DNA of 63,223 nt from an uncultured Lachnoclostridium sp. (GTDB lineage Bacteria > Bacillota > Clostridia > Lachnospirales > Lachnospiraceae), in the NCBI GenBank assembly GCA_946415315.1, contig CAMKRZ010000017.1:1-63223 (forward strand). Reading direction: 5' to 3'. The translations under genes were made by a program, and so were the position numbers. Under the pieces are notes generated by a model. It worked only from the letters and a program-made list of their open reading frames with translations. It had not been told where the DNA came from and did no database searches. This document shows, one piece after another, positions 17,571-60,085 of the stretch (positions are counted from its first letter, which is position 1; the number at the start of each line of letters is the position of its first letter).

Positions 17571-17939
17571 ATGTTTGAAACGGAATTTCGCTTTACATTA
17601 CCCAAGGGCTATCTGGACATGAACGGAAACCTCCATCGCGAAGGTGTAATGAGGCTTGCCAATGCGGGCGACGAGATCATTCCGCTGAAGGATCCGCGCG
17701 TACAGCAGAACCCGGGCTATCTTACAATCATTATTCTCTCCCGTGTCATCAAGAGCCTCGGGACTCTTCCGGCGGTCGACACCCGTGTTATTGAGGGACT
17801 TTTTACGATCGATCTCGCCTATCTTCAGGATCTGTATTCCAAGATCAACACCATGGATATTCCTGTCTACAAGTCGGTTTGCCCGCACTGCGGACAGAAG
17901 CTTGAGATTCCCGTAAATTTTCTGGAAGCCGGAGTATAG
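17571..17939 (+). CDS. tail assembly chaperone-like protein of the injection system
   Basis: 122 residues from the ATG at 17571, chosen because AAAGGAGA ends 8 bases upstream. The core (LPKGYLDMNGNLHREGVMRL, then DPRVQQNPGYLTIIILSRVI and IEGLFTIDLAYLQDLY) matches the phage tail assembly protein encoded near the tube genes of extracellular contractile injection systems. A C-terminal CPHC zinc-type motif follows. Just before its stop lies an A-AAT-TTT heptamer, and the next conserved frame has no start codon (see next entries). This layout mirrors the two-frame tail chaperones of tailed phages. Confidence 0.75.
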   Translation: MFETEFRFTLPKGYLDMNGNLHREGVMRLANAGDEIIPLKDPRVQQNPGYLTIIILSRVIKSLGTLPAVDTRVIEGLFTIDLAYLQDLYSKINTMDIPVYKSVCPHCGQKLEIPVNFLEAGV

Positions 17940-17952
17940 CAGCGTACCCGGC
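17915..17952 (+). promoter_or_regulatory. predicted -1 ribosomal frameshift site
   Basis: The heptamer A-AAT-TTT (17915-17921) is in the zero frame and fits the X-XXY-YYZ rule for tandem -1 slippage. Six bases later GCCGG (17928-17932) can pair with CCGGC (17948-17952), a usual place for a stimulatory stem. The zero-frame stop is at 17937-17939. The -1 frame is open from 17906 and has no ATG, GTG, TTG or CTG before the conserved motif of the next frame. Confidence 0.6.
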
Positions 17953-18115
17953 GGATCGGATTTACGAGGAGATCGCTTTCATCGGTTACTATATGCACTG
18001 GCCGCATGATGAGATAGCTGCGCTCAGCCACAGGGAACGTCAGCGCTGGTGCCGGGAAATCTCCAAGATCAACAGCAAACTGAACGATGAGCCCGACAAC
18101 GCATTCAGGATTTAG
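17921..18115 (+). CDS. DUF6760-like protein, expressed as a -1 frame extension
   Basis: From 17942 this frame reads AYPADRIYEEIAFIGYYMHW and then ERQRWCREISKIN, ending at the TAG 18113-18115. It resembles the small DUF6760 family found beside tube genes of injection systems (YPADR-YEE and RRW-x-EI are remembered signatures). No normal start codon precedes the conserved part; the first ATG (17993) would cut it off. Slippage at 17915-17921 would instead join it to the previous gene, giving about 181 residues (117 plus 64). A start at the ATA that overlaps the upstream stop (17936) is the main alternative. The coordinates give the part read after the slip. Confidence 0.6.
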   Translation, partial: SGSRSIAAYPADRIYEEIAFIGYYMHWPHDEIAALSHRERQRWCREISKINSKLNDEPDNAFRI

Positions 18116-18197
18116 GCGAATGAAAGACTGACAGCGCGTTTCGGGGTCTTTATCGATGTGTGTCCGACCGTGCGGTCAGATTATGAGGTATAGGAAA

Positions 18198-18635
18198 ATG
18201 GCAGATGCTAGTGATTTGATCCCCAGTTATTCATTTGAGGTGACTCTTGACGGTATTTCCTTCAGCTTTACGAAAGTGACGAACCTGTCAGGTTCGGTCG
18301 AGATCGAAACGATCGTGGACGGTGGCTCGAACAACTCGCCGGTGATCCTGCGTAAGCCGAAGCGAAGCCCCGATATGCTTGTTCTCGAGAAGGGCGTGCA
18401 GACGACGGTCAAGGATATGGCGATGGCGATGTTCACCGAGGGCAGCAAGATTGCCGCGATCAACATCAACGTGATCCGCAACGGCAAGACGGTGCGGATG
18501 TTCTTCATCACCGGAGGCGTTGTGGTGCGCCGCGAATTTTCCCCGCTCGACTCGCTCGAGAGTGCTATGCTGATGGTTTCCCTGCAGATTGCACACACGG
18601 GGATTACGGAGGTGCCGCTGCCGGTCGGCATTTAG
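18198..18635 (+). CDS. tail tube protein 2 (T4 gp19-like)
   Basis: 145 residues from the ATG at 18198, with GAGGTATAGGA upstream. The fold signature is clear: YSFEVTLDGISFSFTKVTNLSG at the start, then a long pair of beta-strands (VRMFFITGGVVVRREFSPLDS) and a final strand (MVSLQIAHTGITEVPL). This is the T4 gp19/Hcp-like inner tube fold. Injection systems commonly code two to three tube paralogues; this one probably forms the ring between the baseplate hub and the main tube, because it lies with the baseplate genes while tube 1 lies with the sheath at 59663. Confidence 0.82.
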   Translation: MADASDLIPSYSFEVTLDGISFSFTKVTNLSGSVEIETIVDGGSNNSPVILRKPKRSPDMLVLEKGVQTTVKDMAMAMFTEGSKIAAININVIRNGKTVRMFFITGGVVVRREFSPLDSLESAMLMVSLQIAHTGITEVPLPVGI

Positions 18636-18751: not shown

Positions 18752-21700
18752 GTGGCAGTGATGAGAGGGCCGTTGGGGCTTCTCTTTGGAATGTCCGGTT
18801 GTCGGAGCGGCCGGATAGGGAGACTGAGGTTGAGGACTGTCTCCCGGAAAATGGGGTTGTTGAAAATGCAAATTGCCGGTGGCAAAAGTATAACTGTAAA
18901 CTCGCCGATGAGAAGACTGTTTCTCACGGCGAGTTTTGTTGCTCTTAAGCAGGCTGTGCAGTTTGCCGAGCAGATCATCGAAAAATACGACAAGCCTGAG
19001 GAGAGCACGCAGTTCGGGGAGCCGTTGGTGTTTCTGAAAAACCTTAACAGCGAACTGGAGCGCGCGGGAGCCGTGCGAAACGAATATCTGTTGACAGTAC
19101 GGCTTATGATTGCCCGGCAGCTGTCACTTTCCGGCCGTTTCGGTAGACAGAACAAAGAATATTCTACAACAGTAGAACGCTTTATTGACAGTATGTCCGC
19201 AAATCTGCGCAGTTATGATCCGGTTGCGTGGGGGAGACTTTGCGAGCTACGCAAAGTTATCGAACAGGAAGAGCATTTTGCCGAGGCCGTCTCTGCGGAG
19301 ACTGTCAGAACCGGCGTTGATGAGGCGAAGCTTCTCAAGGTTGAGGCTGCTTCGCTGATCCGCGCGATCAACGAGCGCGCGGACGAAAATTCCGGGCGGG
19401 AGATCCAGGCATCCGACTTGTTCGGACCTTTCTCCGGCGGAGAGCTTTTGTTCCGCACGAGGGATTTTGACGGTGCGCGGGACAGAGTTGCGAACGAAAG
19501 AACCGATGAATTTTCCGAAAAATCCGAAAAAAATGTTTCCGGCACTAAGGAATTTGACCGTGTCGGCGCGACAGATAGATATGATAGGACAATCGTGCCC
19601 GTGGGCGATGCGCGTACGGGCGGGGAAACCGTACCGGTTGTCAGTGATAACCCGGCGGTGGCGCATGAAGAAGGCAACATAGGCGGCAGGGAAAATGCCG
19701 GTCGCGGTGACGCGATCCGCGTGTCTTCGGAGGAATACGGCTACGACAGCGAGAGGTTGATTCTCAGAAACAATGAGGATGCTGATAATGACGAGCAGTC
19801 AGTTCAGGCAGCAACGGCAGAGACTGCTTTGCGAGGCGCGGAGAACTACCCGATAAAGCCTGAGAGCGTGTCGCGCACCGGTGAAAGTGTAATTGGGCAG
19901 AATGAGAAAGAATCACATTCGAATAACGCTGTTGAGGGAAAGGCAGAGTCCTTCGGGGACAGAAATGGCACATTTTCCGACGATGTGATCTCCCGAACGG
20001 AGAACCGACATACTGTTTCCCCGGAGGTCGGCGATGACAAAGGCGAGAGAGCTCAGGATGATATGCAAGTGAGCATGATTACCGTATCTCCGGGTGATTA
20101 TGGTTATGAGCCTTCGAGCCTGGTATTCAAAGACGATTCTGCTGCCGACTCCGAAGACGCACGTTCCGGAGCCGGTACGCAGCAGACCGGAACAGCATTT
20201 CAGCCGGCAGGGGTATCACGGCAGAGTGGAGCGCCGCAATCAGGTGTCGTATCGCAGCAGAGCCAAGTGGTACCGCAGCAGAGCCGATCGGAATCACAGC
20301 TGACAGGCGTATCGCAGCAGAGCGGAACGGAATCTCAGTCGACAGGTGTATTGCGGCAGAGCGGAACGGCATCGCAGCAGAGCAAAACGGCATCGCAGCA
20401 GAGCGGAACGGAATCACAGCCGACAGGCGTATCGCAGCAGAGCGGAACGGAATCACAGCCGACAGGCCTATCGCAGCAGAGCGGAGCGGCATCACAGACC
20501 GGGAACGCAGCAGATGGTCTTCTCGGAGAGGCACCGTCCTCAGGGGCTGTCCCCGGCGGCAACCGTGACATGGAAACTACGGATCCGGCGGGAGAGATTA
20601 CGACCGCTTCGGCACACGCGGTTGTCGCGGAACCGATCGAGATTTCCTCGAGGGATTACCGCTACGACAATGAGAGCCTGGTTCTCCGGGAGGAGAATAC
20701 GGCAGATCCGGCCGGCGGGCATTCCGATGGGATATCGCAGCAGACGGAAACACTCACAGATAACAGAGAAAACGGCAGTTTTTCCGTGCGCAGTCTTGCA
20801 ACGCCAGATGCAGAAAGCAGCGAGACAGTCTCCGGCACATACGATACATCCGCTGACCACGCAGACAATGGGAAGGATAACCGGGAGAGTGCGGCTGCTT
20901 CTGACGACAGCAGGCAGGCTGCAGCCGATGAGACGGTCGGCAGCGCGACCGGCGATGCGATCATGGTTTCCCCGAAGGATTACCGCTATGATCCCTCGAG
21001 CCTGGTGTTCAGGGAGGAGAGCGCGACCGGAAACGGAGAAGCGCAGCAGGGGAGCGTGTCGCAACAGGTGAGTCGTACATCGGTGTCCGGTGACGCGGGC
21101 GATGTACTCCGGAGAGACACCGCGTCCACTGTCAACATCCCCGCCGTGCGGCAGTCCGTCGCACCGGTACAGATCGAGGAGACCGACATTCGGTCTGCTC
21201 ACCGGGCAACCTCCCGAGGGAGCGAAGCGACGATATCCGATGCTGCGCGCGGTAACGCTCAGGTGGAGAACGGGGAACGAGATACCCACAAGTCAGAGGG
21301 GGCCGGCGTTGCTCACAGAGAAGACGGACGCATGCAACCTTCCGTGGGTACGCAACTAACTGTTACGACTACACATGCAGATGCCGACGATCAGACCGGA
21401 GCGGAGGAGACGCCCCGGGACAATATCCTGATCGGAGATGCGATCCGCGTTTCGGATAGGGATTATCGTTACGATATAGAGACGTTTGTCCACAAGGAAA
21501 ATGCGGCTGATCACGATCCCGCGCAGGGAGAGGAACCGACAATAAACACTGCTCACGACAGCGTGCATGTGGCGCGCACCGGGGACGGGGTCACGATCTC
21601 TCAGGGCAGTGACAGTGTCAGGCTTTCCGTGAATGGGGATGCGCTGACCGTAACGCACGGAAGCGAGAGCGTCCGGGTGCCGATCACAGGGTCCGGGCAC

Positions 21701-22522
21701 GTTTCCGGGACCGGCAGCGGAGTGACAGCCGACGCCACGTCAACGGGCAACAACACTTCTGCAGGAAGCGGGACGGCAGGAGGCGATACAGCGCCGGAAA
21801 ATGCATTTTCCGAAGCCAGTGCCGCAGATGCAGGACAGGGCATCACGGGGGTTGTCGCATCCGCAAACGCAGGTTACCGCGTGGCTGACCTCATCTACCG
21901 AAACAGCAGTACGGCTTCCGCTGACGAGTCGATCAATCCGATCGGACTCAACAGTTACCTCACCGAAGGCGCGAGATATTTTGCGGGGCTGATCAATAAA
22001 AGGTCCTTGTCCGCATTGAGAGCTCCGGCGCAGATGACGACGCTCGGAGGAAGTCCTGTGGCTGCCCGGGCGGAAGCGACGCCCGGGAGCGGCGATGCGG
22101 GCAGCGGCGGCGAATACCGTGATACGGCACCGCTTTCCTACCGGACGCCACCGCATACTGCGGAGCCGGTACCGCCGCAGCAGAGCACGGTAAATCACCG
22201 CGCAGGCGCGCCGTCAACCGACACGCTCGTTCGGCAGTTCGGCAACCTGATCGATGGTGCCGATCCCACGGGACTCACTGCCGATTTCGGTAGCACGCCG
22301 ATCCAGAGATCGGACACGGTGATCCGTGAGCTTGTCACTGCGGTGAAAAACGCAGCGGAGCAATCCGCAGTGAACAGTAAAATGATTGAGGAAATACGAA
22401 AGAAACAGACGGAGATGGAAACCGGAACGCTGAAGACGAGCGACATGAGGGTGATCTCGGACGAAGTCATCACGAGGCTTCGCTCGGAGCTTCGGTTCGA
22501 CCGGTCAAGATATTCCGGTTAA
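18752..22522 (+). CDS. large disordered repeat-motif protein of the injection system
   Basis: 1256 residues from the GTG at 18752. The start is uncertain: ATGs at 18761, 18851 and 18866 are in frame, none with a strong ribosome binding site. Residues about 55-240 are helical, the rest mostly disordered. Six copies of a motif like (I/V)S-xx-DYxYD-xxSLVxRE recur near residues 322, 443, 630, 737, 897 and 1034, separated by Ser/Gln/Thr-rich spacers with degenerate 13-residue QQSGTESQPTGVS repeats (DNA about 20200-20500). The C-terminus ends in a coiled-coil and IRELVTAVK...VITRLRSELRF. It sits between tube 2 and the LysM adaptor. Size and place would suit a tape measure, but the disorder and repeated motifs fit a multivalent scaffold better. 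Not recognised. Confidence 0.7.
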   Translation: MAVMRGPLGLLFGMSGCRSGRIGRLRLRTVSRKMGLLKMQIAGGKSITVNSPMRRLFLTASFVALKQAVQFAEQIIEKYDKPEESTQFGEPLVFLKNLNSELERAGAVRNEYLLTVRLMIARQLSLSGRFGRQNKEYSTTVERFIDSMSANLRSYDPVAWGRLCELRKVIEQEEHFAEAVSAETVRTGVDEAKLLKVEAASLIRAINERADENSGREIQASDLFGPFSGGELLFRTRDFDGARDRVANERTDEFSEKSEKNVSGTKEFDRVGATDRYDRTIVPVGDARTGGETVPVVSDNPAVAHEEGNIGGRENAGRGDAIRVSSEEYGYDSERLILRNNEDADNDEQSVQAATAETALRGAENYPIKPESVSRTGESVIGQNEKESHSNNAVEGKAESFGDRNGTFSDDVISRTENRHTVSPEVGDDKGERAQDDMQVSMITVSPGDYGYEPSSLVFKDDSAADSEDARSGAGTQQTGTAFQPAGVSRQSGAPQSGVVSQQSQVVPQQSRSESQLTGVSQQSGTESQSTGVLRQSGTASQQSKTASQQSGTESQPTGVSQQSGTESQPTGLSQQSGAASQTGNAADGLLGEAPSSGAVPGGNRDMETTDPAGEITTASAHAVVAEPIEISSRDYRYDNESLVLREENTADPAGGHSDGISQQTETLTDNRENGSFSVRSLATPDAESSETVSGTYDTSADHADNGKDNRESAAASDDSRQAAADETVGSATGDAIMVSPKDYRYDPSSLVFREESATGNGEAQQGSVSQQVSRTSVSGDAGDVLRRDTASTVNIPAVRQSVAPVQIEETDIRSAHRATSRGSEATISDAARGNAQVENGERDTHKSEGAGVAHREDGRMQPSVGTQLTVTTTHADADDQTGAEETPRDNILIGDAIRVSDRDYRYDIETFVHKENAADHDPAQGEEPTINTAHDSVHVARTGDGVTISQGSDSVRLSVNGDALTVTHGSESVRVPITGSGHVSGTGSGVTADATSTGNNTSAGSGTAGGDTAPENAFSEASAADAGQGITGVVASANAGYRVADLIYRNSSTASADESINPIGLNSYLTEGARYFAGLINKRSLSALRAPAQMTTLGGSPVAARAEATPGSGDAGSGGEYRDTAPLSYRTPPHTAEPVPPQQSTVNHRAGAPSTDTLVRQFGNLIDGADPTGLTADFGSTPIQRSDTVIRELVTAVKNAAEQSAVNSKMIEEIRKKQTEMETGTLKTSDMRVISDEVITRLRSELRFDRSRYSG

Positions 22523-22540: not shown

Positions 22541-23275
22541 ATGGGCATTACCTCATCCATTGCCGAAGCCGCGCTCGGCGCAGCGGCAAAACTGGCAGGC
22601 AGCAAGGCAGTCATCGGAATTGTGGTCGAAGATGAAGTGACCGAGAAGCTTCAGGTGCAGTTCAACCCCTCGGAGTACCGCATCACGAACAGTGCATCCT
22701 ACTCCCAGACCGAGAGACGAAAGGAAGACGAACCGGTCGTGAATTACAACGGCGCTCAGTTTTCCAAACTTTCCGTGAAACTCTACTTCAACAGTGACGA
22801 TTTCTTCTCCGCGGCAGGTGCAATCAACAGTGTCGCCAGCATGGTCAGCGGGGAGGAGGACAAGGGAGTCACCGGATATATCGATTGGCTCACCTCGCTT
22901 ACGAAGATTGAGGGCCAGGAGCATCAGCCACCGAAGTGTATCTTTGCCTGGGGCGCCGTGCAGTTCCTGGGATTTGCCGAGAGTGTGGCGGTCACTTATA
23001 CGATGTTTGACAAGAGTGGCATACCGACCAGAGCGGTCGTCGATCTCACCATGCAGGGTACCAACATCGCGGCAGGTGAGCGCAAGAGTCCGCAGGAGTC
23101 GCCGGACCGCACCAAGGCACGCACGCTGACCGAGGATACGAACATCTGGAGCATCGCGCGAAAGGAGTACGGAAGTTCCCGTGAATGGCGGCGGATCGCC
23201 GATGCCAACAATATCATGAACCCTCTTGATATCCCGGTAGGAAAGGTGCTGCGGGTGCCTTCCATCAACGATTAG
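22541..23275 (+). CDS. LysM-domain tube/baseplate adaptor (Afp7-like)
   Basis: 244 residues. The N-terminal domain (VTEKLQVQFNPSEYRI, then FSKLSVKLYFNS) is the CIS tube-initiator type, and a C-terminal LysM-like unit (residues about 193-244, TNIWSIARKEYG...NNIMNPLDIPVGKVLRVP) follows. In Afp and PVC this protein joins the tube to the hub. GACAGGAGAAACC precedes the ATG. It starts a tight baseplate run with 12-base to 50-base gaps. Confidence 0.85.
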   Translation: MGITSSIAEAALGAAAKLAGSKAVIGIVVEDEVTEKLQVQFNPSEYRITNSASYSQTERRKEDEPVVNYNGAQFSKLSVKLYFNSDDFFSAAGAINSVASMVSGEEDKGVTGYIDWLTSLTKIEGQEHQPPKCIFAWGAVQFLGFAESVAVTYTMFDKSGIPTRAVVDLTMQGTNIAAGERKSPQESPDRTKARTLTEDTNIWSIARKEYGSSREWRRIADANNIMNPLDIPVGKVLRVPSIND

Positions 23276-23287: not shown

Positions 23288-24367
23288 ATGGCTGATTTAA
23301 TGCAGGATACAACCGACACCGCCGATCTGGAAAACAAATACGGAAACTTTATGGTGCCTGCCATGAAGATCAAGTCGTCGGGCACGGATCTGATCGCCGC
23401 GAACGATCTCACGGTCACCGAGATGGATGTGACACTCTCGCTGGAGCGGTCGGGCATGGTGATCATCAAGATCGCGGATGCCTACGATGTGAAGAACCAC
23501 GAGTTCACTTCGAAGATCAAGGATGCCTTCAAACTCGGGACGATCCTCACCGTGGAGCTCGGTTACCTCTCCGAGACAACCGAGGTGTTCAAAGGGTACG
23601 TTGCAGGGCTCGGCGCGGAGATCCGCGACATGCCGCTGCTCGTTGTAAAACTGATGGATGTCCGCAAACTGATGATGTCGAGCGGTGTAAAACGTCTGCT
23701 CTACGAGGAGAAAAACTACTCCGACATTTTCAAAAAGATCATGGGCAACTACTCGAAACTCTGCTCGGTCGAGTGTGATGCGACCTCGGATGAACTGACC
23801 TCGCCGGTCTCGCAGAGTACGAACGATTTTGATTTCGTGAACCAGGAACTGATCGCGAAGGGCAAGTCCGACAGGGAGTTTTTTGTGCTGACGGACAAGG
23901 CGTATTTTCGCGAGGTCGGGAAAAATAAAACCCCCATCATGAAGGCGGAACTCGGGCGCGTGCTCCTGAAATTCAGCATGATGGCGGACTACCTTGACAC
24001 GGAGGTCAATGTGATCGGGTACGATCCCGCCAACGCGAAGGCCATCAGCTCAAAGCTGGCGGTGAAAACCTCCGAGAGTTATTCGGCGGTGCTCTCCCCG
24101 ACGCCGTCCCAGTTCTTCATCGATGCCGATGCCGACAGCGAGGCCAAGGCCAAGACGAGAGCCGAGGCAATCGCCAAGCAGATGCAGATGCAGGTCTGTT
24201 TCGCAGAGGGGGAGACGATCGGGCTTCCGGAGCTTGTTCCCGGCCGGTACCTGGAGATCAAGGACGTAGACGCCTACATCGACCGCAAATACTACATCAG
24301 CGAGGTCAGGCACTGTATCAACACCACGCGCTTCGTCACCTATTTTGAGACGAAGGGCTGGCAGTAA
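23288..24367 (+). CDS. gpD-like baseplate hub protein (Afp8 N-terminal type)
   Basis: 359 residues. The pattern (SLERSGMVIIKIADAYDV, FKLGTILTVELGYLSETTEVFKGYV, KLMMSSGVKRLLYEEKNYSDIF, SDREFFVLTDKAYF, and near the end LVPGRYLEIKDVDAYIDRKYYIS) is that of phage late control protein D and the T4 gp27-like part of VgrG. It should form the trimeric hub above the spike. The spike itself is a separate gene next to it, as in many injection systems that split VgrG in two. Confidence 0.85.
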   Translation: MADLMQDTTDTADLENKYGNFMVPAMKIKSSGTDLIAANDLTVTEMDVTLSLERSGMVIIKIADAYDVKNHEFTSKIKDAFKLGTILTVELGYLSETTEVFKGYVAGLGAEIRDMPLLVVKLMDVRKLMMSSGVKRLLYEEKNYSDIFKKIMGNYSKLCSVECDATSDELTSPVSQSTNDFDFVNQELIAKGKSDREFFVLTDKAYFREVGKNKTPIMKAELGRVLLKFSMMADYLDTEVNVIGYDPANAKAISSKLAVKTSESYSAVLSPTPSQFFIDADADSEAKAKTRAEAIAKQMQMQVCFAEGETIGLPELVPGRYLEIKDVDAYIDRKYYISEVRHCINTTRFVTYFETKGWQ

Positions 24368-24413: not shown

Positions 24414-25184
24414 ATGGGACTTTTTGACAGTATCAGGATCACGCCGGGAATCGGCATTCCCGATGTGATCGGGGGAGTCGTCACGGGGACGGTCAAGGAA
24501 AATTACAACAAGGATTTTCCGGGCAAGATCAAGGTTGAGCTTCTGCTCGGCGAGGAGGGCAAGAACGTGACCGGGTGGATTCCGGTGATGACGCCCTACG
24601 GCGGAAACGAATACGGCAATCTGTTCCTCCCCGAGGTCGATTCGGAGGTGGTTGTCGCGTTCCACATGGGAGACCGCAACAGACCGATCGTGATCGGGTG
24701 CCTGTGGAGCGACAAGAATAAGTTTCCTCCGGAGACGGTGAAGGAGGAAAATCCTGTCAAGACCATCATGACCAAGGCCGGAAGCGTGATCACCTTCGAC
24801 GATACGAAGGATAAGGAACTGATTTCCGTCAAGACGAAGAAGGGCAGTTTCTTTGAGATCAGCGAGGAGAACCAGACGATCTCCCTCTCCGACAAGGACA
24901 AGAAGAACTCGGTGGTCATCAACGCGAAGGACGGCGATGTGACCGTGACGGCGGACAAGACGCTGAATCTGAAGGTCGGCGGCAAAAATGCGGTTGCCAT
25001 CACCGACAAGGAGATTACGCTGAAGACCTCGACAATCTCGGTGAGCGCCGACAAGGATCTCACGCTCAAGGGGCAGAATACCACAGTCGACGGGAATTCC
25101 GTCAAGGTGAGCGGCAAGAGCTCTCTTGAGGTGTCAGCCAGCGGAACAACGCAGGTCAAGGGCTCGATGGTGAAGATAAACTAA
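24414..25184 (+). CDS. central spike protein, gp5/VgrG C-terminal type
   Basis: 256 residues. Residues about 15-105 form the OB-fold of the gp5/gpV family (VVTGTVKENYNKDFPGKIKV, LPEVDSEVVVAFHMGDRNRP, IVIGCLWSDKN). Residues about 120-256 are short valine/threonine/lysine repeats (VTVTADKTLNLKVGG, ITLKTSTISVSADKDLTLKG) typical of the triple-stranded beta-helix needle. No extra effector domain is fused at the C-terminus. It should be capped by the PAAR-like protein at 38601. Confidence 0.88.
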   Translation: MGLFDSIRITPGIGIPDVIGGVVTGTVKENYNKDFPGKIKVELLLGEEGKNVTGWIPVMTPYGGNEYGNLFLPEVDSEVVVAFHMGDRNRPIVIGCLWSDKNKFPPETVKEENPVKTIMTKAGSVITFDDTKDKELISVKTKKGSFFEISEENQTISLSDKDKKNSVVINAKDGDVTVTADKTLNLKVGGKNAVAITDKEITLKTSTISVSADKDLTLKGQNTTVDGNSVKVSGKSSLEVSASGTTQVKGSMVKIN

Positions 25185-25216: not shown

Positions 25217-25651
25217 ATGGCAAACACGGACAACAGGGATTTCTTGGGAACCGGCTTCGGGTTCCCCGTGCGGGTGGATCCGAACACCGGAAAAGTAAAG
25301 ACTTCCTCGAGCGACGAGGATATCCGGGAGTCGATCCGGATCATACTCGGAACGCAGAAGGGGGAGCGGCCGATGTGTCCGGAGTTCGGATGCTTTATCA
25401 ACAGATTTGTGTTCGGAACAACCGATGCCTCCACAATGTCACTGATGAAGCAGGCGGTGGAGAACGCGCTTGTCATGTGGGAGCCGAGGATTCGGGATAT
25501 CAAGGCGACGATCGAGCAGTCCTCCGAGGAGGAGGGATTGCTGCTGATCCGGATTTCCTACACGGTGCGTGCGACAAACAATCCGTATAACCTCGTCTAT
25601 CCGTTCTACATCAGCGAGGGATACAACGAGGCAGCCATGGTGAAGCAATAA
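25217..25651 (+). CDS. baseplate wedge protein gp25/GPW family
   Basis: 144 residues. GTGFGFPVRVDP at the start, EDIRESIRIILGTQKGERPM with the conserved Glu-x-Arg/GTxxGER core, then PEFGC and AVENALVMWEPRI make the gp25 fold, one of the most conserved proteins of contractile tails. GCGGAGGCGACATCG precedes the ATG. It contacts the sheath start in known structures. Confidence 0.9.
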   Translation: MANTDNRDFLGTGFGFPVRVDPNTGKVKTSSSDEDIRESIRIILGTQKGERPMCPEFGCFINRFVFGTTDASTMSLMKQAVENALVMWEPRIRDIKATIEQSSEEEGLLLIRISYTVRATNNPYNLVYPFYISEGYNEAAMVKQ

Positions 25652-45657: not shown

Positions 45658-45667
45658 GGAGGGATTA

Positions 45668-48510: not shown

Positions 48511-48515
48511 CGAAA

Positions 48516-52668: not shown

Positions 52669-52682
52669 CAGTTATAAGCGGG

Positions 52683-52727
52683 AAGAAGTCATTGGATATC
52701 GCAGAAGCATTGGGGTACGAAGAATAA
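52683..52727 (+). pseudogene. leftover C-terminus of a further B-type paralogue
   Basis: Between paralogue B2 and the regulator one frame reads KKSLDIAEALGYEE and stops. B2 itself ends VEEVAEALGYEG. The similarity over the last 10 residues, within 60 bases, suggests a tandem duplicate that was deleted except for its tail, or a local duplication. It has no start of its own. Confidence 0.55.
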
Positions 52728-52729
52728 CT

Positions 52730-54940
52730 ATGTCTTATAAATTTTTCGGAAAATTGAAACACACCTTTCCAAAGCCATCCCCGTTCATCCGGCGCGAGTG
52801 CAGGACAGTTGACGGATCGCCGGTGCTGATCGTCGCCTGCGCAGGATGGGGCAAGACTTCGTATCTTGCACAGCTGGCGGAGGAGAACGAGGACAGCGTC
52901 TGTATCAGTGTGGGTGTGGAGGATAATTCCTGTGGGAGAATGATCGAGCTTCTTGCGGAGGCGCTTCCCGAAGCGGGAATTGTGCCTGGTGTTGTGCGCG
53001 GCACGGGAGTCGCAACGGATGTCACGGACGGTTCGGATAAAGGGCGCGGAGACGGAGCTTACGACGCAGCGTGCAAGGCGGCGGAAGCGCTTTCCCGCGA
53101 CGGCGGAAGACTTCTTCTGGTTGACAACGCTTCGCTTATCACGGAATCCGGGGCGTGCGCATTGCTTGAGATGCTCATAAAACCTGCGATGACGGGAGAA
53201 TTCCGGGCGGTATTTGCCGCGCGGGTAATCCCGAGATTTCTTCTCTCTGGCGTCATGGACGGCAGTGTGAAAATGATGGGCATCAACGAGCTTCGGTTCA
53301 CGCGATCCGAGACTGCGGAGCTTGCGGCTGCGTTCGCCGGGAGTCCGACGGACATGTATGTCAACACACTGCATTCATTTTCCGGGGGATGGTGCGCAGC
53401 GGCTGCGACACTCGCGCGGATCGGCGGCGACCCCTGTGCGGCTTCTGATCGGAGCTACTTACGACAGTACATGAGCGACAACATTCTCGCGTCGATGACG
53501 GAGGATCTGCGGGAGTACCTGCTGATGACGGCATTTATCGCGACGGAGGATGCGGAGCTGTCGAGGGAAGTGTTCCGCGTCACGGACGGGCGCGCACGGT
53601 CCTTTGAGCTGGCGACGCTCGGTATCGCGTCGGAGGAGGGCGAGCCGTACCCCGAGGTGATGCGGCGGATCCTGTCCACATTCCTGCCGTCGAAGCTGCG
53701 GAGCGACCTGATCAAGCGGGCGGCGGATCATTTTATCAAGAATAAACGGTTTGCGGAGGCGGTCGCGCTGTTCGAGGAGAGCGGCGATTCGCCTGCGGCA
53801 GAGCGGTTCCTGAGGCTGTACGGTGCGGAGTTGCTCGCAAACTGTGAGTTTGAATTGATCGGTTACTGCGGGAGGATCATCGGCCGGCCGGAGGCCATCG
53901 CCGATCCCGAGGTGCTCGGAACTCTCGCACAGTACCATTACTACAGCGGCGAGTACGAGCGTATGGAGCGCGCGTACAACCTTGCAGACAGCATGTTTGG
54001 CAAGGAGAACAAGTTCGGCATTTACCGAATGCTCTACAACGGCCTGCGCAAGTTCGAAGCGAACCCGAAGCTCTACGCTGCCAACGTGCGGAAGGCCGCG
54101 GAATACCTCGCCGCGAACGGGCTGGCGATGCCGTTCCTCTATCAGAAGGAGCAGGCGCTCTTCGAGAATCTTCTCTCGGAAAATGAAGAGCCCAAGCCCG
54201 AGCAGTCGGTGCTCTCGGTGTTCCGCTTCGGCGATCTGAAACTGATGGCCGGCAGCGAGCAGCGGGAAATCCAGTGCAAGACCCGAAGAAGTCTCGAGCT
54301 GATCGCGTATCTGCTCGAAAACCGCGGGCGGGCGGTCAGCCGCGAGGAGCTGCTCAACGCGCTGTGGCCCGATGATATGCCTGCGAACGCGGTGGCGATG
54401 CTGCACAACATGATCTACAACCTGCGCCGCGAGCTTTCGGTCTATGGTTTGGAAAATGTGATCAGCTACAAGAACCGCAGCTACACCGTCGACATGTCGA
54501 TGCTGCGCGAGGCGGACGCGGACATTCTCGCGGTCTGCCGGTGCGTCGACAGCGGGGATACCGGCGCGCTGCTTGCGCATGAGGCGGCCGCCGAGAACTA
54601 CTGGGGACGGTTCCTGGGGAGTTTCGACAGTCTTTGGGCGCGCGAGAAGAAGGAGTATTACGATCGGTGTTATATCAATGCCTGCATGATGCTTTCGGAG
54701 CACTACCGTGCTTCGGGCGAGTACGAGAGGGAGCTCATTTTCCTGAAAAACGCGCTCCGGCTCGATCCGTATTCCGAACAGCTCGTGCACGACATCCTTG
54801 TCTGCTGCGCAGCACTCGGGAAGCCCGACAAGGTGAACCGGTATTACGAGGAGTACTCGGCGCGGCTCGATGCCGATTTCGGCACACGCCCGAGCAAATG
54901 GCTGCGGAGCAAGTATCTCTCCTGTTTCGGAGAAAAATGA
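52730..54940 (+). CDS. MalT-like/BTAD (SARP-type) transcriptional regulator
   Basis: 736 residues from the ATG at 52730; an in-frame ATG at 52658 would overlap paralogue B2. The N-terminus has a P-loop ACAGWGKTS (residues 36-44) and a Walker B-like RLLLVDNASLI, with LRFTRSETAELAAAFAG typical of MalT/LAL ATPases. A helical TPR-like middle follows. From about residue 494 a winged helix (FRFGDLKL, TRRSLELIAYLLENRGRAVS, NALWPDDM, NLRRELSVYG) and a BTAD-type repeat region (KEYYDRCYINACMMLSEHYR, RLDPYSEQLVHDILVCCAAL) match SARP activators. It lies inside the injection locus, on the same strand, and is the obvious candidate to control it. SARPs bind direct repeats; three such repeats lie before the sheath gene. 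Confidence 0.78.
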   Translation: MSYKFFGKLKHTFPKPSPFIRRECRTVDGSPVLIVACAGWGKTSYLAQLAEENEDSVCISVGVEDNSCGRMIELLAEALPEAGIVPGVVRGTGVATDVTDGSDKGRGDGAYDAACKAAEALSRDGGRLLLVDNASLITESGACALLEMLIKPAMTGEFRAVFAARVIPRFLLSGVMDGSVKMMGINELRFTRSETAELAAAFAGSPTDMYVNTLHSFSGGWCAAAATLARIGGDPCAASDRSYLRQYMSDNILASMTEDLREYLLMTAFIATEDAELSREVFRVTDGRARSFELATLGIASEEGEPYPEVMRRILSTFLPSKLRSDLIKRAADHFIKNKRFAEAVALFEESGDSPAAERFLRLYGAELLANCEFELIGYCGRIIGRPEAIADPEVLGTLAQYHYYSGEYERMERAYNLADSMFGKENKFGIYRMLYNGLRKFEANPKLYAANVRKAAEYLAANGLAMPFLYQKEQALFENLLSENEEPKPEQSVLSVFRFGDLKLMAGSEQREIQCKTRRSLELIAYLLENRGRAVSREELLNALWPDDMPANAVAMLHNMIYNLRRELSVYGLENVISYKNRSYTVDMSMLREADADILAVCRCVDSGDTGALLAHEAAAENYWGRFLGSFDSLWAREKKEYYDRCYINACMMLSEHYRASGEYERELIFLKNALRLDPYSEQLVHDILVCCAALGKPDKVNRYYEEYSARLDADFGTRPSKWLRSKYLSCFGEK

Positions 54941-54970
54941 TAACGCAACATCAGGTGACAGGTGATCAAC

Positions 54971-56911
54971 ATGAACGAACGCTATGAGGAACTGTTCAGC
55001 GCTCTCGACAGATATCTTGCGGATTTTTCGGGCAAAGGCCGGGATCCGGAAGAGGCGGGGAGGCTGTTCGGCATCATTGAGAAGGGCGGGGACACCCCGT
55101 ACGATACCATATGTAACGTGTTTGGCTGCGGACGCTTCGAGGCGTGCGCGGTGCTTCTCGGCGCGTTCGTTACGATTGGCGGCACGCGCGGGGATCTGCT
55201 TCGCGCGTTCGGCGCAGGCGAACCCTCGGGGATCACGCCTGCCGCGGTCAGCGGAATCTTCTTCGGCTGCTCGGACATCATGCCGTTTGTGGAGTTCCTC
55301 GGGAAGGGCACCGCGCTTGACCGGCTGTTCGACGGTACGGAACCGTACGCGAAGGCGCAGATGAAGCTGGGGAGCAGCATTGCTTCGTACTTCTTCACCG
55401 GCGCACTGTACGATCCTCTTTTCGCGGTTGAGGATGACGATGAGGGGGATGCCACAGAAACTCCTGCTTTCAGTGATTACATTCCTCTCGCAAGCACAGA
55501 CAAAGCAGTCCGTGAACTGTGCGCGATCATCTCCGGGCTTGACCCGGCGAAACCTTCCGTGATCCGGGTGACAGGCGAGAAGGGCGCCGGACGGCACACT
55601 GCCGTACAGCGCGCCTTTGCAGCCGTCGGAGGGCGGTGCATTCCGGTGACACTGCCTGCGAAGCTGTCCGCGGAGCGCACGGAGGAACTCTGCACGAAGC
55701 TGCTTCTCGCAGAAAGCGTGCCGGTGATCACGTTCGCGGAGGGGGCATTTTCCGCGGAGGCAGTCGGAACGATTGCCGACGAGACCGGCATGACGGTGGT
55801 CATCTGTGAGGATGAGACGATGGGCGATTTCGGCGCGGAGAGTTACACCGTGAAAGTCGGCCTTCCGGTGCTTGAGGAGCAGCTTTTGTTATGGCAGACC
55901 ATGAGCCGGGAGCATTCCGTTGCTCCGGACGCCGATCTTGCCGAGCTGACCGGCGAATTCGAACTGACGCCGGCCGGGGTGAAGAAGGTGCTGCGGTGCG
56001 CATCCCTGCTCGCCGGCGGCGGGACACTTACGATGGCTGATATCAAGAACGGCTGCTACCGATCGTTCGGATCGGACATGGGTAGCAAGGCGGTCCGGAT
56101 CGACAGTGCGTTCGGTTGGGACGACCTTGTGCTTCCCACGCACAGCAAGGAACTGCTGCGCGCCGCATGCGACCAGGTGCGGCTGCGACACAAAGTCTTC
56201 GACGGATGGGGATTCGGTCGGAAAATGCCCTACGGCAAGAGCGTATCGATGATCTTCACGGGTTCGCCGGGAACCGGAAAGACCATGGCGGCACAGATTG
56301 TGGCGAAGGAACTGGGGATGGATATCTATCGGATCAGCCTCGCCAACGTCGTCAGCAAGTACATCGGGGAGACCGAGAAAAACCTGAATGAGATTTTCGA
56401 CAACGCGAAACAGAGCCATGTCATCCTCTTCTTCGACGAGGCAGACGCGCTGTTCTCGCGGCGCACCGAGGTCAAGGACTCCAACGATAAATACAGCAAT
56501 ATGGAGGCTGCGTTCCTCCTTCAGAAGATTGAGGAGTTCAGCGGCGTGGTCATCCTCGCCACCAACCTTGTCCAGAATTTCGATGAGGCATTCAAACGGC
56601 GCATGCGGTTCATCATTGATTTTCCGTTCCCCGATGCCGATCGCCGCAGGGCACTCTGGAAGCGGGCGTTCCCGGAGAAGGCTCCGCTTGGAAATATCGA
56701 TTTCGAATTCCTCGTTTCGCACTATGAGCTTTCGGGCAGTAACATCCGCAACATTGCGCTGCACAGCGCATTTTTGGCTGCGTCGGGAACGGAGGAGCCA
56801 ATCGGCATGAAGCATATTATGGCGGCGCTCCGTAACGAGTACGCAAAGAGCGGTAAGGCGTTCACCAGGGCAGAGGCCGGCGAGTATTACTATTGTCTGA
56901 CAGATAATTGA
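54971..56911 (+). CDS. AAA+ ATPase 2 of the injection system (Afp15-like)
   Basis: 646 residues from the ATG at 54971 (AGGTGATCAAC upstream); a GTG at 54962 is possible. As in ATPase 1, an early P-loop is degenerate (GEKGAGRH, 202-209) and the later module is canonical: Walker A GSPGTGKT (431-438), Walker B LFFDEAD (Asp489, Glu490), sensor VILATNL, FDEAFKRRMRF. The two ATPases share blocks such as SKYIGET, EVKDSND and the GSNI helix after the lid, so they arose by duplication. This copy lies next to the sheath-tube end of the locus. Confidence 0.82.
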   Translation: MNERYEELFSALDRYLADFSGKGRDPEEAGRLFGIIEKGGDTPYDTICNVFGCGRFEACAVLLGAFVTIGGTRGDLLRAFGAGEPSGITPAAVSGIFFGCSDIMPFVEFLGKGTALDRLFDGTEPYAKAQMKLGSSIASYFFTGALYDPLFAVEDDDEGDATETPAFSDYIPLASTDKAVRELCAIISGLDPAKPSVIRVTGEKGAGRHTAVQRAFAAVGGRCIPVTLPAKLSAERTEELCTKLLLAESVPVITFAEGAFSAEAVGTIADETGMTVVICEDETMGDFGAESYTVKVGLPVLEEQLLLWQTMSREHSVAPDADLAELTGEFELTPAGVKKVLRCASLLAGGGTLTMADIKNGCYRSFGSDMGSKAVRIDSAFGWDDLVLPTHSKELLRAACDQVRLRHKVFDGWGFGRKMPYGKSVSMIFTGSPGTGKTMAAQIVAKELGMDIYRISLANVVSKYIGETEKNLNEIFDNAKQSHVILFFDEADALFSRRTEVKDSNDKYSNMEAAFLLQKIEEFSGVVILATNLVQNFDEAFKRRMRFIIDFPFPDADRRRALWKRAFPEKAPLGNIDFEFLVSHYELSGSNIRNIALHSAFLAASGTEEPIGMKHIMAALRNEYAKSGKAFTRAEAGEYYYCLTDN

Positions 56912-57014: not shown

Positions 57015-57785
57015 ATGGAGTATGTGAACAACAATAAAACTCCGGCTGAATCCGAGGAGATCCGGGAGCGGGAAGAACGGAAACTCGAGGCATCGGAAGG
57101 TGTCCGTCGGGAGCGTGACAGCAAGCGGGACCGGCGTAAGAAACCCGAGGGCTACGAGCAGCACCCGGCGGAGGAGAAAACCTACGAAGTGTTCGGGTTG
57201 AAAAACTCGTTCGACAACCTCTCGGTCAGCTCGGACGACCGGGGACGAATGACGCTTGCGGTCAGCTCTCAGAAGAGCTTTCACGGAGCGACATTGGACG
57301 CCACGAAGAAGAAACTGCGCGGCTCCCGCCGCCGCACCAAATACGAGCACTGGGGAGAGTTCTATACCGACCCCGCTGCGCGCGGGATGGGCGCATTTGC
57401 CTTCCGCACGAGAAAGAACCTTCCGGAGCATCGGATCCTGCGGGAGTTCAAAGGAACCGCGAACAAGTACGTGGATCCCGCCCGGTTGGAGGCTTTGCCG
57501 TTCCTTACGCTCGAGGAGGACAGGGAGCGCCTTGCGGAGCTTCGAAGCCGCGAAGGCAGCTCTTCCGCGGACTTCAGCGAGCGGCTCGCGCTCGAGCAGA
57601 CGATCGTTCGCAAGACTGAGCTGGAGAACCGATTTATCCGGAAACTGCGAATTGCACGCAGACAGACATACGCAAAGCCGGTGACGGAGTACACCGAGCC
57701 GGAGCAGGTTGTCCGAGCGGTCACAGACGGAGCGGACGGGGCGGACGGAGATGAGACAGGCGAAGAGAATATTCAGGAAAAATGA
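57015..57785 (+). CDS. charged protein of unknown function in the injection locus
   Basis: 256 residues. The first 60 are highly charged (Arg, Glu, Lys) and likely helical; then KTYEVFGLKNSFDNLSVSSD and a basic stretch KKKLRGSRRRTKYEHWGEFY. Residues about 155-215 form a coiled-coil (LEEDRERLAELRSREG, LALEQTIVRKTELENRFIRK). The tail is Gly/Asp/Glu-rich. No known domain. A weak GAGGTGCCGAA precedes the ATG. Its place between ATPase 2 and the sheath promoter suggests an accessory structural role. Confidence 0.6.
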   Translation: MEYVNNNKTPAESEEIREREERKLEASEGVRRERDSKRDRRKKPEGYEQHPAEEKTYEVFGLKNSFDNLSVSSDDRGRMTLAVSSQKSFHGATLDATKKKLRGSRRRTKYEHWGEFYTDPAARGMGAFAFRTRKNLPEHRILREFKGTANKYVDPARLEALPFLTLEEDRERLAELRSREGSSSADFSERLALEQTIVRKTELENRFIRKLRIARRQTYAKPVTEYTEPEQVVRAVTDGADGADGDETGEENIQEK

Positions 57786-57800: not shown

Positions 57801-57858
57801 GTTATAACCGTGATTATTATTTTAGTTATAATCGGCTGATACAATCATGTCATAAACG
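57801..57858 (+). promoter_or_regulatory. three 24-bp-spaced direct repeats before the sheath gene
   Basis: GTTATAACCG (57801-57810), GTTATAATCG (57825-57834) and GTCATAAACG (57849-57858) start exactly 24 bases apart, giving the consensus GTYATAANCG. The second contains TATAAT (57827-57832), and TACAAT lies at 57840-57845, so the array overlaps possible -10 elements. No good -35 is present, which suits an activator-dependent promoter. The SARP-type regulator of this locus is the natural candidate to bind. Whole gap 57786-57938 shows no gene. Confidence 0.6.
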
Positions 57859-57938
57859 ATGATACTGCTGAAAGGCGGTGTTTAAATCCGTTACCGAAAG
57901 GAGGAAGGTCACATCTGGAAGTGGATGGACCGATCATT

Positions 57939-59642
57939 ATGGCAGAGTATTTATCTCCCGGTGTATATGTTGAGGAATTTGAATCGGGCGGCAAGCCTAT
58001 GGAAGGCGTCGGCACAAGTACGGCCGGTTTCGTTGGTCTTGCTGAGAAAGGCCCGGTCGGCGGAGTTCCCCGTCTGATCACCAATTTTGCAGAGTTCCGC
58101 AGAACTTACGGCGGATTCCTCTCCGAGAACGAGTTCGGCGAGTACCGTTTTTTGGCTTATGCTGTCGAGCACTTCTTCGTGAACGGCGGCACACGCTGCT
58201 TCATCACCCGTGTAGCACCTAAGAGCGCAAAATGTGCCAAGGCTACGGTAGGCGACATCACCTTCCTTGCGAAGGATCCCGGCGAGTGGGGCAATGCGAT
58301 CAGCGTGAAGATTGTTCGCGCCTCCAAGGCTAAGACCCAGGCTCTTGAGAAGCTCGGCGACAAGAAGTACCGCGTGAAGAGCGGCGCAGGCTTCAACCCC
58401 GGCGACATTGTGGCATTTACCGCGGGTGAGACCAAAGAGTTCAGCAAGGTAGAGAAGAATCAGGACAACATCATTACGTTCGAGAAGGATTTCGAGTCGG
58501 ATATCACCGATACCGAACTTCTTCCGACCAAGGTTCTGACTACCTGCGAGCTTACTTTTGAGGTGAAGTACAGCGATACCACAGAACTTTACGAGTGCGC
58601 TTCCTTCAACATTGAGGCTCCGAACTTCATTTCCAAGAAAACCGCTAAGTCGGAACTTGTGGAAGTGGTTTACAAGGGCAGCAACAAGATCGGTGATCTG
58701 TTTGATACGCTTACGGACGAGGAGATCGATGTTGTTACGGTCGAGTTTAACGGCGGCAGCAACGGTTCCGTTTCCAACATTTCCGCAGCGGATTTCATCG
58801 GCGTTGACGGCGGTGCCGGCAACAGAACCGGTATCCAGTCCTTCCTGGATAACGACGTTGTTTCCATCATGGCGGTTCCGGGCGTTACCGATCCCAACGT
58901 TCAGCTGACTCTCGTAGCACACTGCGAGAACCTTGCGAGCAGATTTGCCGTACTCGATCTCCCGAGAGATGCGAGAATGGTGGATGAGATCATCGCTCAC
59001 AGAGATATCTTCAATTCGAGTTATGCTGCTCTGTATCATCCGTGGCTTCAGGTTTTCGATCCGCTTGACAAGAAGAACATCGCGATCCCGCCGTCGGGCT
59101 CGGTCATCGGTATCTTCGCAAGAAGCGACAACGCGAGAGGCGTTCACAAGGCTCCCGCAAACGAAGTTGTAAGAGCCTGTGTAGGTCTTGACTGCCAGTT
59201 CAACAAGGGAGAGCAGGATATCCTCAACCCGAAGGGCATCAACCTGATCCGTTCCTTCCCGGGACAGGGAATCCTCGTATGGGGCGCAAGAACGGCTTCG
59301 GCAGATCCGAGCTGGAAATACGTCAACGTCCGCCGTCTCTTCATTTTCCTCGAAGAGTCGATCAAGGCCAATACGAACTGGGCAGTGTTCGAACCCAACG
59401 ATCAGGCGCTGTGGACAAGAGTTCAGAGAACGATCAACGTATTCCTTACCAACATGTGGCGTAACGGTTCCTTCGCCGGTGCAACCGCTGATGAAGCGTT
59501 CTTCGTGAACATCGGCAGAAACACCATGAGTCAGGATGATATCGATAACGGCCGCCTCGTATGCGTGATCGGCGTGGCTCCTGTGAAGCCTGCTGAATTT
59601 GTAATCTTCAGGATTACGCAGAATACAGGCAGTGCAGAATAA
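57939..59642 (+). CDS. contractile sheath protein
   Basis: 567 residues. The start MAEYLSPGVYVEEFESGGKP is the standard N-terminus of sheath proteins of injection systems; an in-frame GTG at 57921 follows the strong AAAGGAGGAAGG (57897-57908) and could add six residues. The C-terminal domain is conserved: WKYVNVRRLFIFLEESIKAN, LWTRVQRTINVFLTNMW, GRLVCVIGVAPVKPAEFVIF, which carries the strands that lock neighbouring subunits. Codon use is more uniform (many AAG, CTT, GCT, AGA) than in nearby genes, as expected for a highly made structural protein. Only one sheath gene is present. Confidence 0.93.
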   Translation: MAEYLSPGVYVEEFESGGKPMEGVGTSTAGFVGLAEKGPVGGVPRLITNFAEFRRTYGGFLSENEFGEYRFLAYAVEHFFVNGGTRCFITRVAPKSAKCAKATVGDITFLAKDPGEWGNAISVKIVRASKAKTQALEKLGDKKYRVKSGAGFNPGDIVAFTAGETKEFSKVEKNQDNIITFEKDFESDITDTELLPTKVLTTCELTFEVKYSDTTELYECASFNIEAPNFISKKTAKSELVEVVYKGSNKIGDLFDTLTDEEIDVVTVEFNGGSNGSVSNISAADFIGVDGGAGNRTGIQSFLDNDVVSIMAVPGVTDPNVQLTLVAHCENLASRFAVLDLPRDARMVDEIIAHRDIFNSSYAALYHPWLQVFDPLDKKNIAIPPSGSVIGIFARSDNARGVHKAPANEVVRACVGLDCQFNKGEQDILNPKGINLIRSFPGQGILVWGARTASADPSWKYVNVRRLFIFLEESIKANTNWAVFEPNDQALWTRVQRTINVFLTNMWRNGSFAGATADEAFFVNIGRNTMSQDDIDNGRLVCVIGVAPVKPAEFVIFRITQNTGSAE

Positions 59643-59662
59643 CAGAAAGGAGTTGAATAGTT

Positions 59663-60085
59663 ATGGCATATCCGCATACCAGATTTAGATACAAGGTTGA
59701 GATCGAAGGTCTTGATGCCGGCGGTTTCTCCGAAGTTACGGGATTTGACGCTTCCATCGATGTTATTGAGTACCGCGAGGGCGATAAGGTTACGACCCCT
59801 CAGAAGATTCCGGGACTCAAGAAGTACGGCAATGTTACCCTCAAGCAGGGTCTCATCGACTCCACGGTTATGTACGACTGGATGATCGCAGGTGTGAACG
59901 GTGCGGTTGAGCGCAAGACAGTCACCATCACGCTTCTTGATGAGGAAGAGGCTCCGGCAGCTTCCTGGCAGATCATCAATGCATGGCCGACGAAGTACAC
60001 GGCTCCGGATTTCAATGCGACAGCATCTGAGGTTGCAATCGAGACCGTAGAGCTTGCGCATGAAGGAATGACCAGAATTTCCTGA
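59663..60085 (+). CDS. main tail tube protein 1 (T4 gp19-like)
   Basis: 140 residues, ATG behind AGAAAGGAG. HTRFRYKVEIEGLDAGGFSE and VTGFDASIDVIEYREG form the first strands, then TPQKIPGLKKYGNVTLKQGL and a last YTAPDFNATASEVAIETVEL-AHEG. This is the classic tube protein paired with the sheath, forming the tube that is driven out on contraction. It follows the sheath by 20 bases, and the same smooth codon use suggests high expression. Confidence 0.93.
   Translation: MAYPHTRFRYKVEIEGLDAGGFSEVTGFDASIDVIEYREGDKVTTPQKIPGLKKYGNVTLKQGLIDSTVMYDWMIAGVNGAVERKTVTITLLDEEEAPAASWQIINAWPTKYTAPDFNATASEVAIETVELAHEGMTRIS

Follow-up and report, generated by a model that had tools for sequence, protein, structure and literature searches.

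The window analysed here, a 63,223-nucleotide contig (CAMKRZ010000017.1) of an uncultured Lachnoclostridium species, encodes a contractile injection system (CIS) of the extracellular (eCIS) kind. Among its core genes lies a module of membrane and signalling proteins: a membrane-anchored pseudokinase (PK), a membrane protein with MORN repeats (MORN), a degenerate class III cyclase homologue (CYC) and, in this species, a sensor–HAMP–SpoIIE protein. The core is complete, the PK/MORN/CYC module is linked to it with or without the sensor–HAMP–SpoIIE protein, the catalytic residues of the module have been lost while purifying selection acts on its genes, and module and machine co-occur in Bacillota. 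What is new here is the identity of these accessory genes. From them we infer that the machine docks on, and is triggered from, the producer's membrane, and we give an even chance to the reading that an eCIS-kind CIS has been re-engineered to act from the producer's own cytoplasmic membrane via a transmembrane pseudoenzyme complex. It is an open question how bacteria with a single membrane hold and fire a phage-tail machine, and the module offers a candidate complex for docking and triggering that is genetically linked to such a machine; because that candidate occurs in dozens of Clostridia loci, including those of named strains, the question is testable. If the reading is true, the module would be an unusual case in which selection has held three dead signalling folds together.

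Linkage of the module to contractile injection genes

With open reading frames (ORFs) taken as genes, positions 17445-60085 form a single co-directional CIS cluster on the + strand throughout. For the library scans, 46 ORFs of at least 80 residues were picked from the 203 listed and compared, each with at least one family library, using Pfam, NCBIfam and PHROG; membrane helices were predicted by hydropathy. The eCIS-type gene set proves complete, comprising sheath, gp19 tubes, LysM protein, hub, spike, gp25, J-type wedges, PAAR-like tip, Pvc16 cap and AAA ATPases, with the hub and the large J-like protein scoring under curated cut-offs. Each part of the machine named in a first-pass annotation of this DNA was thus found by Pfam and NCBIfam, and the family matches support its description of the core as Afp/PVC-like.

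The sheath occurs in two of 31 genomes (the source genome and 30 relatives), namely the source genome itself and G014, a genus mate with the same system; the G014 contig is also our record L059, a Lachnospiraceae metagenome-assembled genome (MAG) from water-buffalo rumen. At the level of the class, CIS_tube was matched in 14 of 391 genomes, the source included, and loci were examined for 11 of these 14, leaving out G231, G272 and G395. MORN, CYC and PK are all present in G000, G232, G253, G117, G190 and G294; the divergent PK of G294 was recognised from its position and alignment, and in the corresponding record L127 it matched the profile with 28.9 bits. None of the three appears in the stretches seen of the second G055 locus, G323, G166, G366 or the 15-kb G229 contig. 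A PK profile matched 30 of the 391 class genomes at an E-value of 0.001 and missed the divergent G294 protein. Five rows with frames of 281-308 residues and 68-100% model coverage (G000, G232, G253, G117 and G190) all come from CIS_tube-positive genomes; the other rows, whose frames are longer or far shorter or whose matches are short and partial, probably represent ordinary kinases or chance hits.

A scan of a genome collection, with the C-terminal region of CYC alone as query (a five-row alignment), yielded 100 stretches that match the pattern, 71 of which encode a relative; three of the 71 loci (L059, L080 and L127) are contigs of query rows. The loci were annotated over at most 10 kb on each side, and CYC was called as an ORF in 68. 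Leaving AAA out of account, 62 of the 71 loci contain one or more CIS core genes, 55 two or more and 42 three or more. MORN occurs in 57 loci, PK in 43, and PK, MORN and CYC together in 42. Neighbouring pairs recur as well: Tail_P2_I-type and CIS13-like genes in 40 places, CIS13-like and PK in 35, PK and MORN in 42, MORN and cap in 44, cap and the carboxypeptidase-regulatory-like gene in 40, and PAAR-like and CYC in 33. By NCBI names, 39 loci belong to Lachnospiraceae, 7 to Oscillospiraceae and 7 to Paenibacillaceae, and one (L128) to a gammaproteobacterial MAG; named strains bearing the module are Sporofaciens musculi (L109), Petralouisia muris (L107) and Anaeromicropila populeti (L068). The comparison of gene order across Clostridia for which the first-pass annotation had called finds the PK–MORN–CYC set beside CIS genes in dozens of loci.

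Against G014, the ratio of nonsynonymous to synonymous substitution (dN/dS) is at most 0.36 in all 28 of the 30 cluster genes for which it could be measured, the other two being saturated; it is 0.100 for PK, 0.146 for MORN, 0.165 for CYC and 0.131 for the SpoIIE protein. The measurable genes are under purifying selection. Taken with the linkage counts, this selection establishes the system as a recurring CIS sub-type of Bacillota and not a one-off.

Predicted membrane topology and loss of catalytic residues

The first-pass annotation had noticed three membrane-anchored accessory proteins, and hydropathy agrees, predicting one helix in the protein starting at 33956, one in that at 34801 and two in that at 39884. 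PK (33956..34804, +) has a clear kinase fold, a C-terminal helix and a short tail with a conserved Ile-Gly motif. The kinase, cyclase and SpoIIE proteins were read against the catalytic motifs of their folds. At positions read from an alignment, the HRD and the DFG aspartates are each present in none of 35 PK rows, and the protein appears to be a kinase fold without catalytic residues, that is, a pseudokinase. In 42 of 43 PK proteins a single helix is predicted, and in 41 its start lies no more than 80 residues from the C-terminus; the tail motif is found in 41 of the 43.

MORN (34801..37092, +; PF02493, 9.7e-48) has one predicted helix at residues 81-99, and a helix is predicted in 56 of 59 MORN proteins. 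In the 50 proteins that have their first helix start before residue 160, the mean fraction of Lys and Arg is 0.22 before the helix and 0.10 after it, and in 49 of them it is greater before the helix; the count leaves out six proteins in which the helix comes later. Since the segment before the helix is the more basic, the repeats probably lie outside the cell. Ahead of the helix, Tyr69 (55 of 56) and Gly73 (54 of 56) are nearly invariant, as is Pro102 (56 of 56) behind it; these residues may form a contact site. In G190 and G253, paired large proteins of 684-947 residues lie between MORN and the cap (L143:5333-10256 and L045:6210-11010), and both members of the G190 pair begin with a signal-like helix.

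CYC (39054..39842, +) was recognised from alignments, Pfam giving no match of its own, as a degenerate class III cyclase domain followed by a TPR-like tail. Its four catalytic columns were placed through the G232 protein and OaPAC (5x4t) at low identity, and single columns may be off. Both metal-binding aspartates are absent from the window protein, and only one of 69 rows, L128, keeps both. That protein, from a gammaproteobacterial MAG with no CIS gene in the stretch covered, looks like an ordinary cyclase (Pfam Guanylate_cyc, 4.3e-24), and its retention of both residues thus serves as a positive control for the placement of the columns. The membrane sensor–HAMP–SpoIIE protein (39884..41509, +; PF07228, 4.1e-24; PF00672, 2e-05; two helices) has lost three of the four metal aspartates. 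Across 22 rows the TDG aspartate is found in one (L122) and the last metal aspartate in 21.

A receptor probably exchanged between two output domains

CYC proteins fall into three size classes: fused receptors of 555-1006 residues (44 loci), proteins of 327-428 residues (16 loci) and short forms of at most 270 residues (8 loci, with L112 at a contig end). The fused receptors have two to five predicted helices, mostly two or four, and Pfam detects HAMP in both of the CIS-linked fused proteins scanned (L080 and L109). A sensor–HAMP–SpoIIE protein accompanies CYC in 20 of the 24 loci with a short or mid-sized CYC (in L064 by tblastn only, 7e-129), and in the remaining four 1.5-3.1 kb of sequence is left after CYC. 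SpoIIE queries match 4 of the 44 fused-CYC loci; in L083, L104 and L105 the match is to the sensor of CYC itself, and in L122 to a GAF–SpoIIE protein. The split between CYC types gives a Fisher p of 9.8e-10 on the uncorrected 20/4 versus 4/40 table, which does not include the three loci where CYC was not called. The sensors are themselves homologous, the L075 SpoIIE protein and the L080 CYC sharing 25% identity over 250 residues (8e-11). In most species the receptor arm appears to be fused to CYC, and in the present one it appears to have been transferred to the SpoIIE protein. The strongest evidence that CYC and SpoIIE, both dead as output domains, may work in one complex is this exchange of the receptor.

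Other proteins and gene orders near CYC may be mentioned here. Multi-helix proteins of about 1000 residues lie near it at L110:5964-8969, L072:5233-8244 and L074:12193-15198, the one scanned, that of L110, having an MFS transporter part, and a 791-residue protein that reads like them is found in the CIS locus of G366. Loci L079, L087, L090 and L108 display a different order of core genes, with gp25 directly after CYC and, in three of them, the spike too.

Relationship to known systems

In a sheath tree of 17 rows, the eight module-bearing rows and G366 form one set with 98/98 support; the module is lacking in four other Clostridia CIS, which group apart with 100/99 support. The module label requires two changes on the best tree, and a single change is also compatible. 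Because of long branches, the positions of the Streptomyces, Haloferax and Paenibacillus rows are unsure.

The window shares with Afp and PVC particles the tube, sheath, hub, spike, gp25, J-type, cap and AAA components. It differs from them in its membrane module, in the want of a recognised large fibre gene and in its sheath, which is more distant (Pvc2, 3.1e-51) than those of two other solved systems. The type VII secretion machine of Gram-positive bacteria contains a membrane protein with an inactive kinase fold, EssB/YukC, which by description resembles PK; no ESX family was found by Pfam among the cluster proteins. Nor does any type VI secretion system (T6SS i-iii) membrane family (TssJLM) match the cluster proteins at an E-value of 0.01, and the sheath is of the PF04984 type and not TssBC.

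The nearest solved sheath is 9EZM, from a haloarchaeal CIS (6.2e-127), followed by that of Streptomyces coelicolor (2.1e-109; entries 8BKY and 8BL4, PMC10066040). The available text on the haloarchaeal system, an archaeal T6SS from Halogeometricum borinquense, describes it as membrane-bound and T6SS-like, with a proposed membrane anchor gene beside the core and, as in the present bacterium, a single-membrane envelope; the closest relatives of haloarchaeal Cis11 come from Bacillota (PMC11566945). Its anchor is a six-helix protein, whereas cluster proteins of the window have at most two predicted helices. PK, MORN and CYC found no match in the 37.7-kb plasmid CIS of Haloferax larsenii.

The thylakoid-anchored CIS (tCIS) of Anabaena shares with the window a CIS13-like protein. 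According to the part of the source available, Cis13 there is tail-fibre-like and penetrates the membrane by a helix of its own, the particle being attached to the membrane at its baseplate (PMC8894136). The CIS13-like protein of the window has no predicted helix, and separate membrane proteins are encoded instead; a helix is predicted in 1 of 47 scanned relatives of more than 300 residues, and in two of the three from G117, G253 and G190. In Streptomyces coelicolor a cytoplasmic CIS requires for firing the bitopic, single-pass protein CisA, whose N-terminus is inside; the accessible portion of that report mentions no pseudoenzyme module, the comparison being by description and not with the CisA sequence (PMC12237407). 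CIS modes described in the text available to us are the T6SS on the cytoplasmic membrane, the free eCIS, the thylakoid-anchored CIS and the cytoplasmic CIS (PMC12998442). Given the membrane mode of the haloarchaeal system, the membrane-penetrating Cis13 of the tCIS and the position of PK directly after the CIS13-like gene in 35 places, a membrane mode is plausible for the module-bearing clade.

In the CIS literature searched, so far as its text was available and supplements aside, a module of MORN, SpoIIE and cyclase proteins is not described; a listing among the eCIS of Chen et al. 2019 is possible. The words "morn" (PMC6748792) and "SpoIIE" (PMC12744356) occur together with "contractile injection", which in the text available is known as co-occurrence only. 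The same literature turned up no experiments on a member of the module-bearing clade. The earlier statement that the combination is found in no described system therefore holds as far as that literature reaches and no farther.

Proposed mechanism and alternatives

In the mechanism we propose, the baseplate would dock on PK and MORN through the CIS13-like protein, and the sensor–HAMP receptor arm would sense a signal outside the cell. That signal would be relayed through CYC by protein contacts rather than by second messengers, and would permit or fire the machine. Four paralogous proteins of the cluster would be the cargo injected in this sub-clade; chaperone-like proteins would hold them and the ATPases may handle them. 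The target could be neighbouring cells or the producer's own envelope. We hold more tentatively, and as somewhat short of an even chance, the fuller proposal that single-membrane bacteria possess an additional mode of contractile injection, gated by a receptor. In this mode a transmembrane trigger complex of three catalytically dead folds (kinase, cyclase and SpoIIE phosphatase) and an outside-facing MORN would hold the baseplate on the producer's membrane and would release contraction, with chaperoned cargo, upon an outside signal. Action at the producer's own membrane had been suggested by the first-pass annotation. The suggestion gains from the recurrence of the module by CIS genes and from the membrane-bound state of the system with the nearest solved sheath, but it retains its conditional standing.

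Several observations weigh against action at the membrane through a pseudoenzyme complex. Both the membrane location and the contact of the module with the baseplate are proposed from sequence, and the sensor could simply regulate expression. The linkage has gaps: the first G055 locus has MORN and CYC with PK undetected, G366 belongs to the same sheath clade with no module found in its stretch, and nine of the 71 loci (L081, L082, L110, L111, L112, L118, L123, L125 and L128) have no core gene in the stretch covered. Four of the nine are contigs of less than 9 kb and five measure 12.8-20.7 kb; MORN is present in L118 and L123. The haloarchaeal sheath is not joined to the module-bearing clade in the tree. 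The window CYC has an aspartate one column from the second metal position, so that the placement of columns matters, and the first and second metal aspartates of SpoIIE are kept in 7 and 11 of 22 rows. A SpoIIE protein of G190, near a CIS-type ATPase, retains all four. Finally, L063 carries two chaperone-like proteins with the paralogues undetected there.

Three other explanations deserve consideration. The system might be a cytoplasmic CIS as in Streptomyces, whose floating particles, on stress, use a single-pass protein to meet the membrane and so bring about death or remodelling of the producer, with MORN or PK in the role of CisA. The rank of the S. coelicolor sheath as second nearest among those solved fits this view, as does the CisA topology, which is that proposed for MORN; the module, however, possesses a multi-domain receptor of its own as well as a kinase fold, and the available part of the description of CisA mentions neither (PMC12237407); we consider the explanation unlikely. 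An ordinary released eCIS, in which the membrane proteins merely control expression, assembly or release, would account for the Afp/PVC-like core and for the regulator (at 52658) and sensor protein within the operon. It is harder to reconcile with the many loci in which PK and MORN are flanked by the CIS13-like gene and the cap gene, with the occurrence of BTAD in only 6 of 71, and with the scan of 46 window ORFs, which brought up no lysis gene; the loss of catalytic residues would also be unusual for a signalling relay. This we regard as distinctly unlikely.

The domains might instead be active in unusual ways, a kinase or SpoIIE fold using other residues to make a real phosphorylation switch, for which the threonine-phosphorylation pathway of the T6SS would be the model. 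The clear kinase fold of PK is consistent with such a switch, as is the survival in SpoIIE of the last metal aspartate and, in 7 of 22 rows, the first. The HRD and DFG aspartates are nevertheless missing from every PK row, the TDG aspartate from 21 of 22 SpoIIE rows and the cyclase metal pair from 68 of 69, and we judge the switch very improbable. An active signalling relay was set aside on these losses in PK, CYC and SpoIIE.

Components of the core machine

The cluster opens with a small tail-assembly-chaperone-like protein between tube genes (17445..17939, +; phrog_508 tail assembly chaperone, 1.9e-05), whose true start is probably 17571 and whose profile was joined by nine proteins from relatives, making ten sequences with that of the window. 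A second tube protein (18156..18635, +; PF06841, 4.8e-08) is followed by a 1256-residue protein (18752..22522, +) with 64% identity to G014 over 335 aligned residues and no match in Pfam, NCBIfam or PHROG; its position and its length variation in relatives make it a possible tape measure. Next come the LysM-type tube protein (22541..23275, +; PF19266, CIS_tube, 2.4e-26), the hub (23288..24367, +; PF05954, 7.6e-06), the spike (24414..25184, +; PF04717, 4e-20) and the gp25 wedge (25217..25651, +; PF04965, 2.8e-24). The baseplate is continued by a large J-like protein, Cis11-type by position (25703..28657, +; TIGR02243, 1.4e-30), a second J-like protein (28764..30818, +; PF04865, Baseplate_J, 9.8e-14) and a Tail_P2_I-type protein (30847..32094, +; PF09684, 2.7e-08).

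The CIS13-family-like protein (32195..33904, +) matches NF053767 at 1.7e-19, over residues 8-160 only and under the curated cut-off. The first-pass annotation saw no recognisable tail fibre, which is too strong, since the cyanobacterial Cis13 is described as resembling a tail fibre. Beyond PK and MORN lie the Pvc16 cap (37120..37719, +; PF14065, Pvc16_N, 9.4e-23), a cap-adjacent protein of uncertain start that is weakly carboxypeptidase-regulatory-like (37721..38494, +; PF13620, 0.00031, under cut-off) and the DUF4280 or PAAR-like tip (38520..38987, +; PF14107, 1.4e-35). Two AAA ATPases (41524..43752, +; PF00004, 1e-32; and 54962..56911, +; PF00004, 7e-31) share 45% identity over 349 residues. 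The second is separated from the sheath by a conserved 256-residue protein (57015..57785, +), 77% identical in G014, to which Pfam and PHROG scans assigned no family. The sheath (57921..59642, +; PF04984, 9.6e-19, and PF17482, 5.5e-18) and major tube (59663..60085, +; PF06841, 1.6e-45) complete the cluster and are respectively 96% and 99% identical to those of G014.

Paralogues, chaperone-like proteins and regulator

The four large paralogues of the first-pass annotation (43771..45657, 45715..47916, 49058..50713 and 50740..52668, all +) do match one another, the first and third at an E-value of 7e-63. Their N-terminal parts are Ala-rich and mostly Pro-rich, identity to the best G014 match is 36-68%, and a search of 12 genomes with the first paralogue found the family in two. 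Between the second and third lie chaperone-like protein A, possibly of the CesT/YbjN type (47956..48510, +), recognised because its profile matches a chaperone-like family that recurs elsewhere, and its paralogue B (48507..49013, +; 3.8e-10). That match has a probability of 95.4% and an E-value of 1.9e-08, with no rows shared between the profiles; a Pfam scan of the two window proteins themselves gave no family. The 20 members elsewhere lie near an AAA ATPase and another long protein with a low-complexity N-terminus; YbjN is matched by two of them (best 6.6e-11) and TY-Chap1 by one (0.011). The paralogues and the cargo-like proteins of other loci align over 96 columns only (hhalign 92%), so that homology is not established, and paralogue and chaperone profiles found nothing meaningful among the sequences of solved structures. 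The four paralogues, a narrower and fast-evolving set accompanied by chaperone-like proteins, are probably cargo.

In L077, three short Gly-rich proteins alternate with chaperone-like ones. A glycine-zipper toxin was considered for the paralogues and rejected, GxxxG motifs not exceeding shuffled sequences in 12 of 12 proteins (the fewest shuffles reaching the observed count were 78 of 500).

The built-in regulator of the first-pass annotation is confirmed as a Trans_reg_C and BTAD protein (52658..54940, +; PF00486, 1.7e-09; PF03704, 5.5e-10). As defining features of the system, however, paralogues and regulator do not hold generally: within the 10-kb flanks, paralogues occur in 7 and BTAD in 6 of the 71 loci, whereas the membrane module is widespread.

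Genomic setting

The draft genome measures 2.93 Mb in 42 contigs, the window being contig 17, and further genes may therefore sit on other contigs. No head, terminase, integrase or lysis gene was found among the 46 window ORFs scanned, flanks included and other contigs outside the scan, which agrees with the absence of capsid, terminase, integrase and lysis genes noted earlier; with dN/dS of at most 0.36 in 28 of 30 genes, this leads us to reject a defective prophage. Rfam and tRNA scans of the window gave no match.

Ordinary host genes precede the CIS, encoding a MerR-family regulator, a PmbA/TldD pair, BioY and a glycosyl hydrolase of family 43. Also upstream is a 1256-residue protein (11848-15618) with an RHS-repeat match (4.4e-08) and a putative lipoprotein-like N-terminal stretch. 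Proteins with weak Sel1-repeat and DnaJ matches follow the cluster. Near the end of the window, a 141-residue protein (62698-63123), which we take to be HIRAN-like, has matches in several phage families without an assigned function, phrog_18569 (5.3e-13) being the best.

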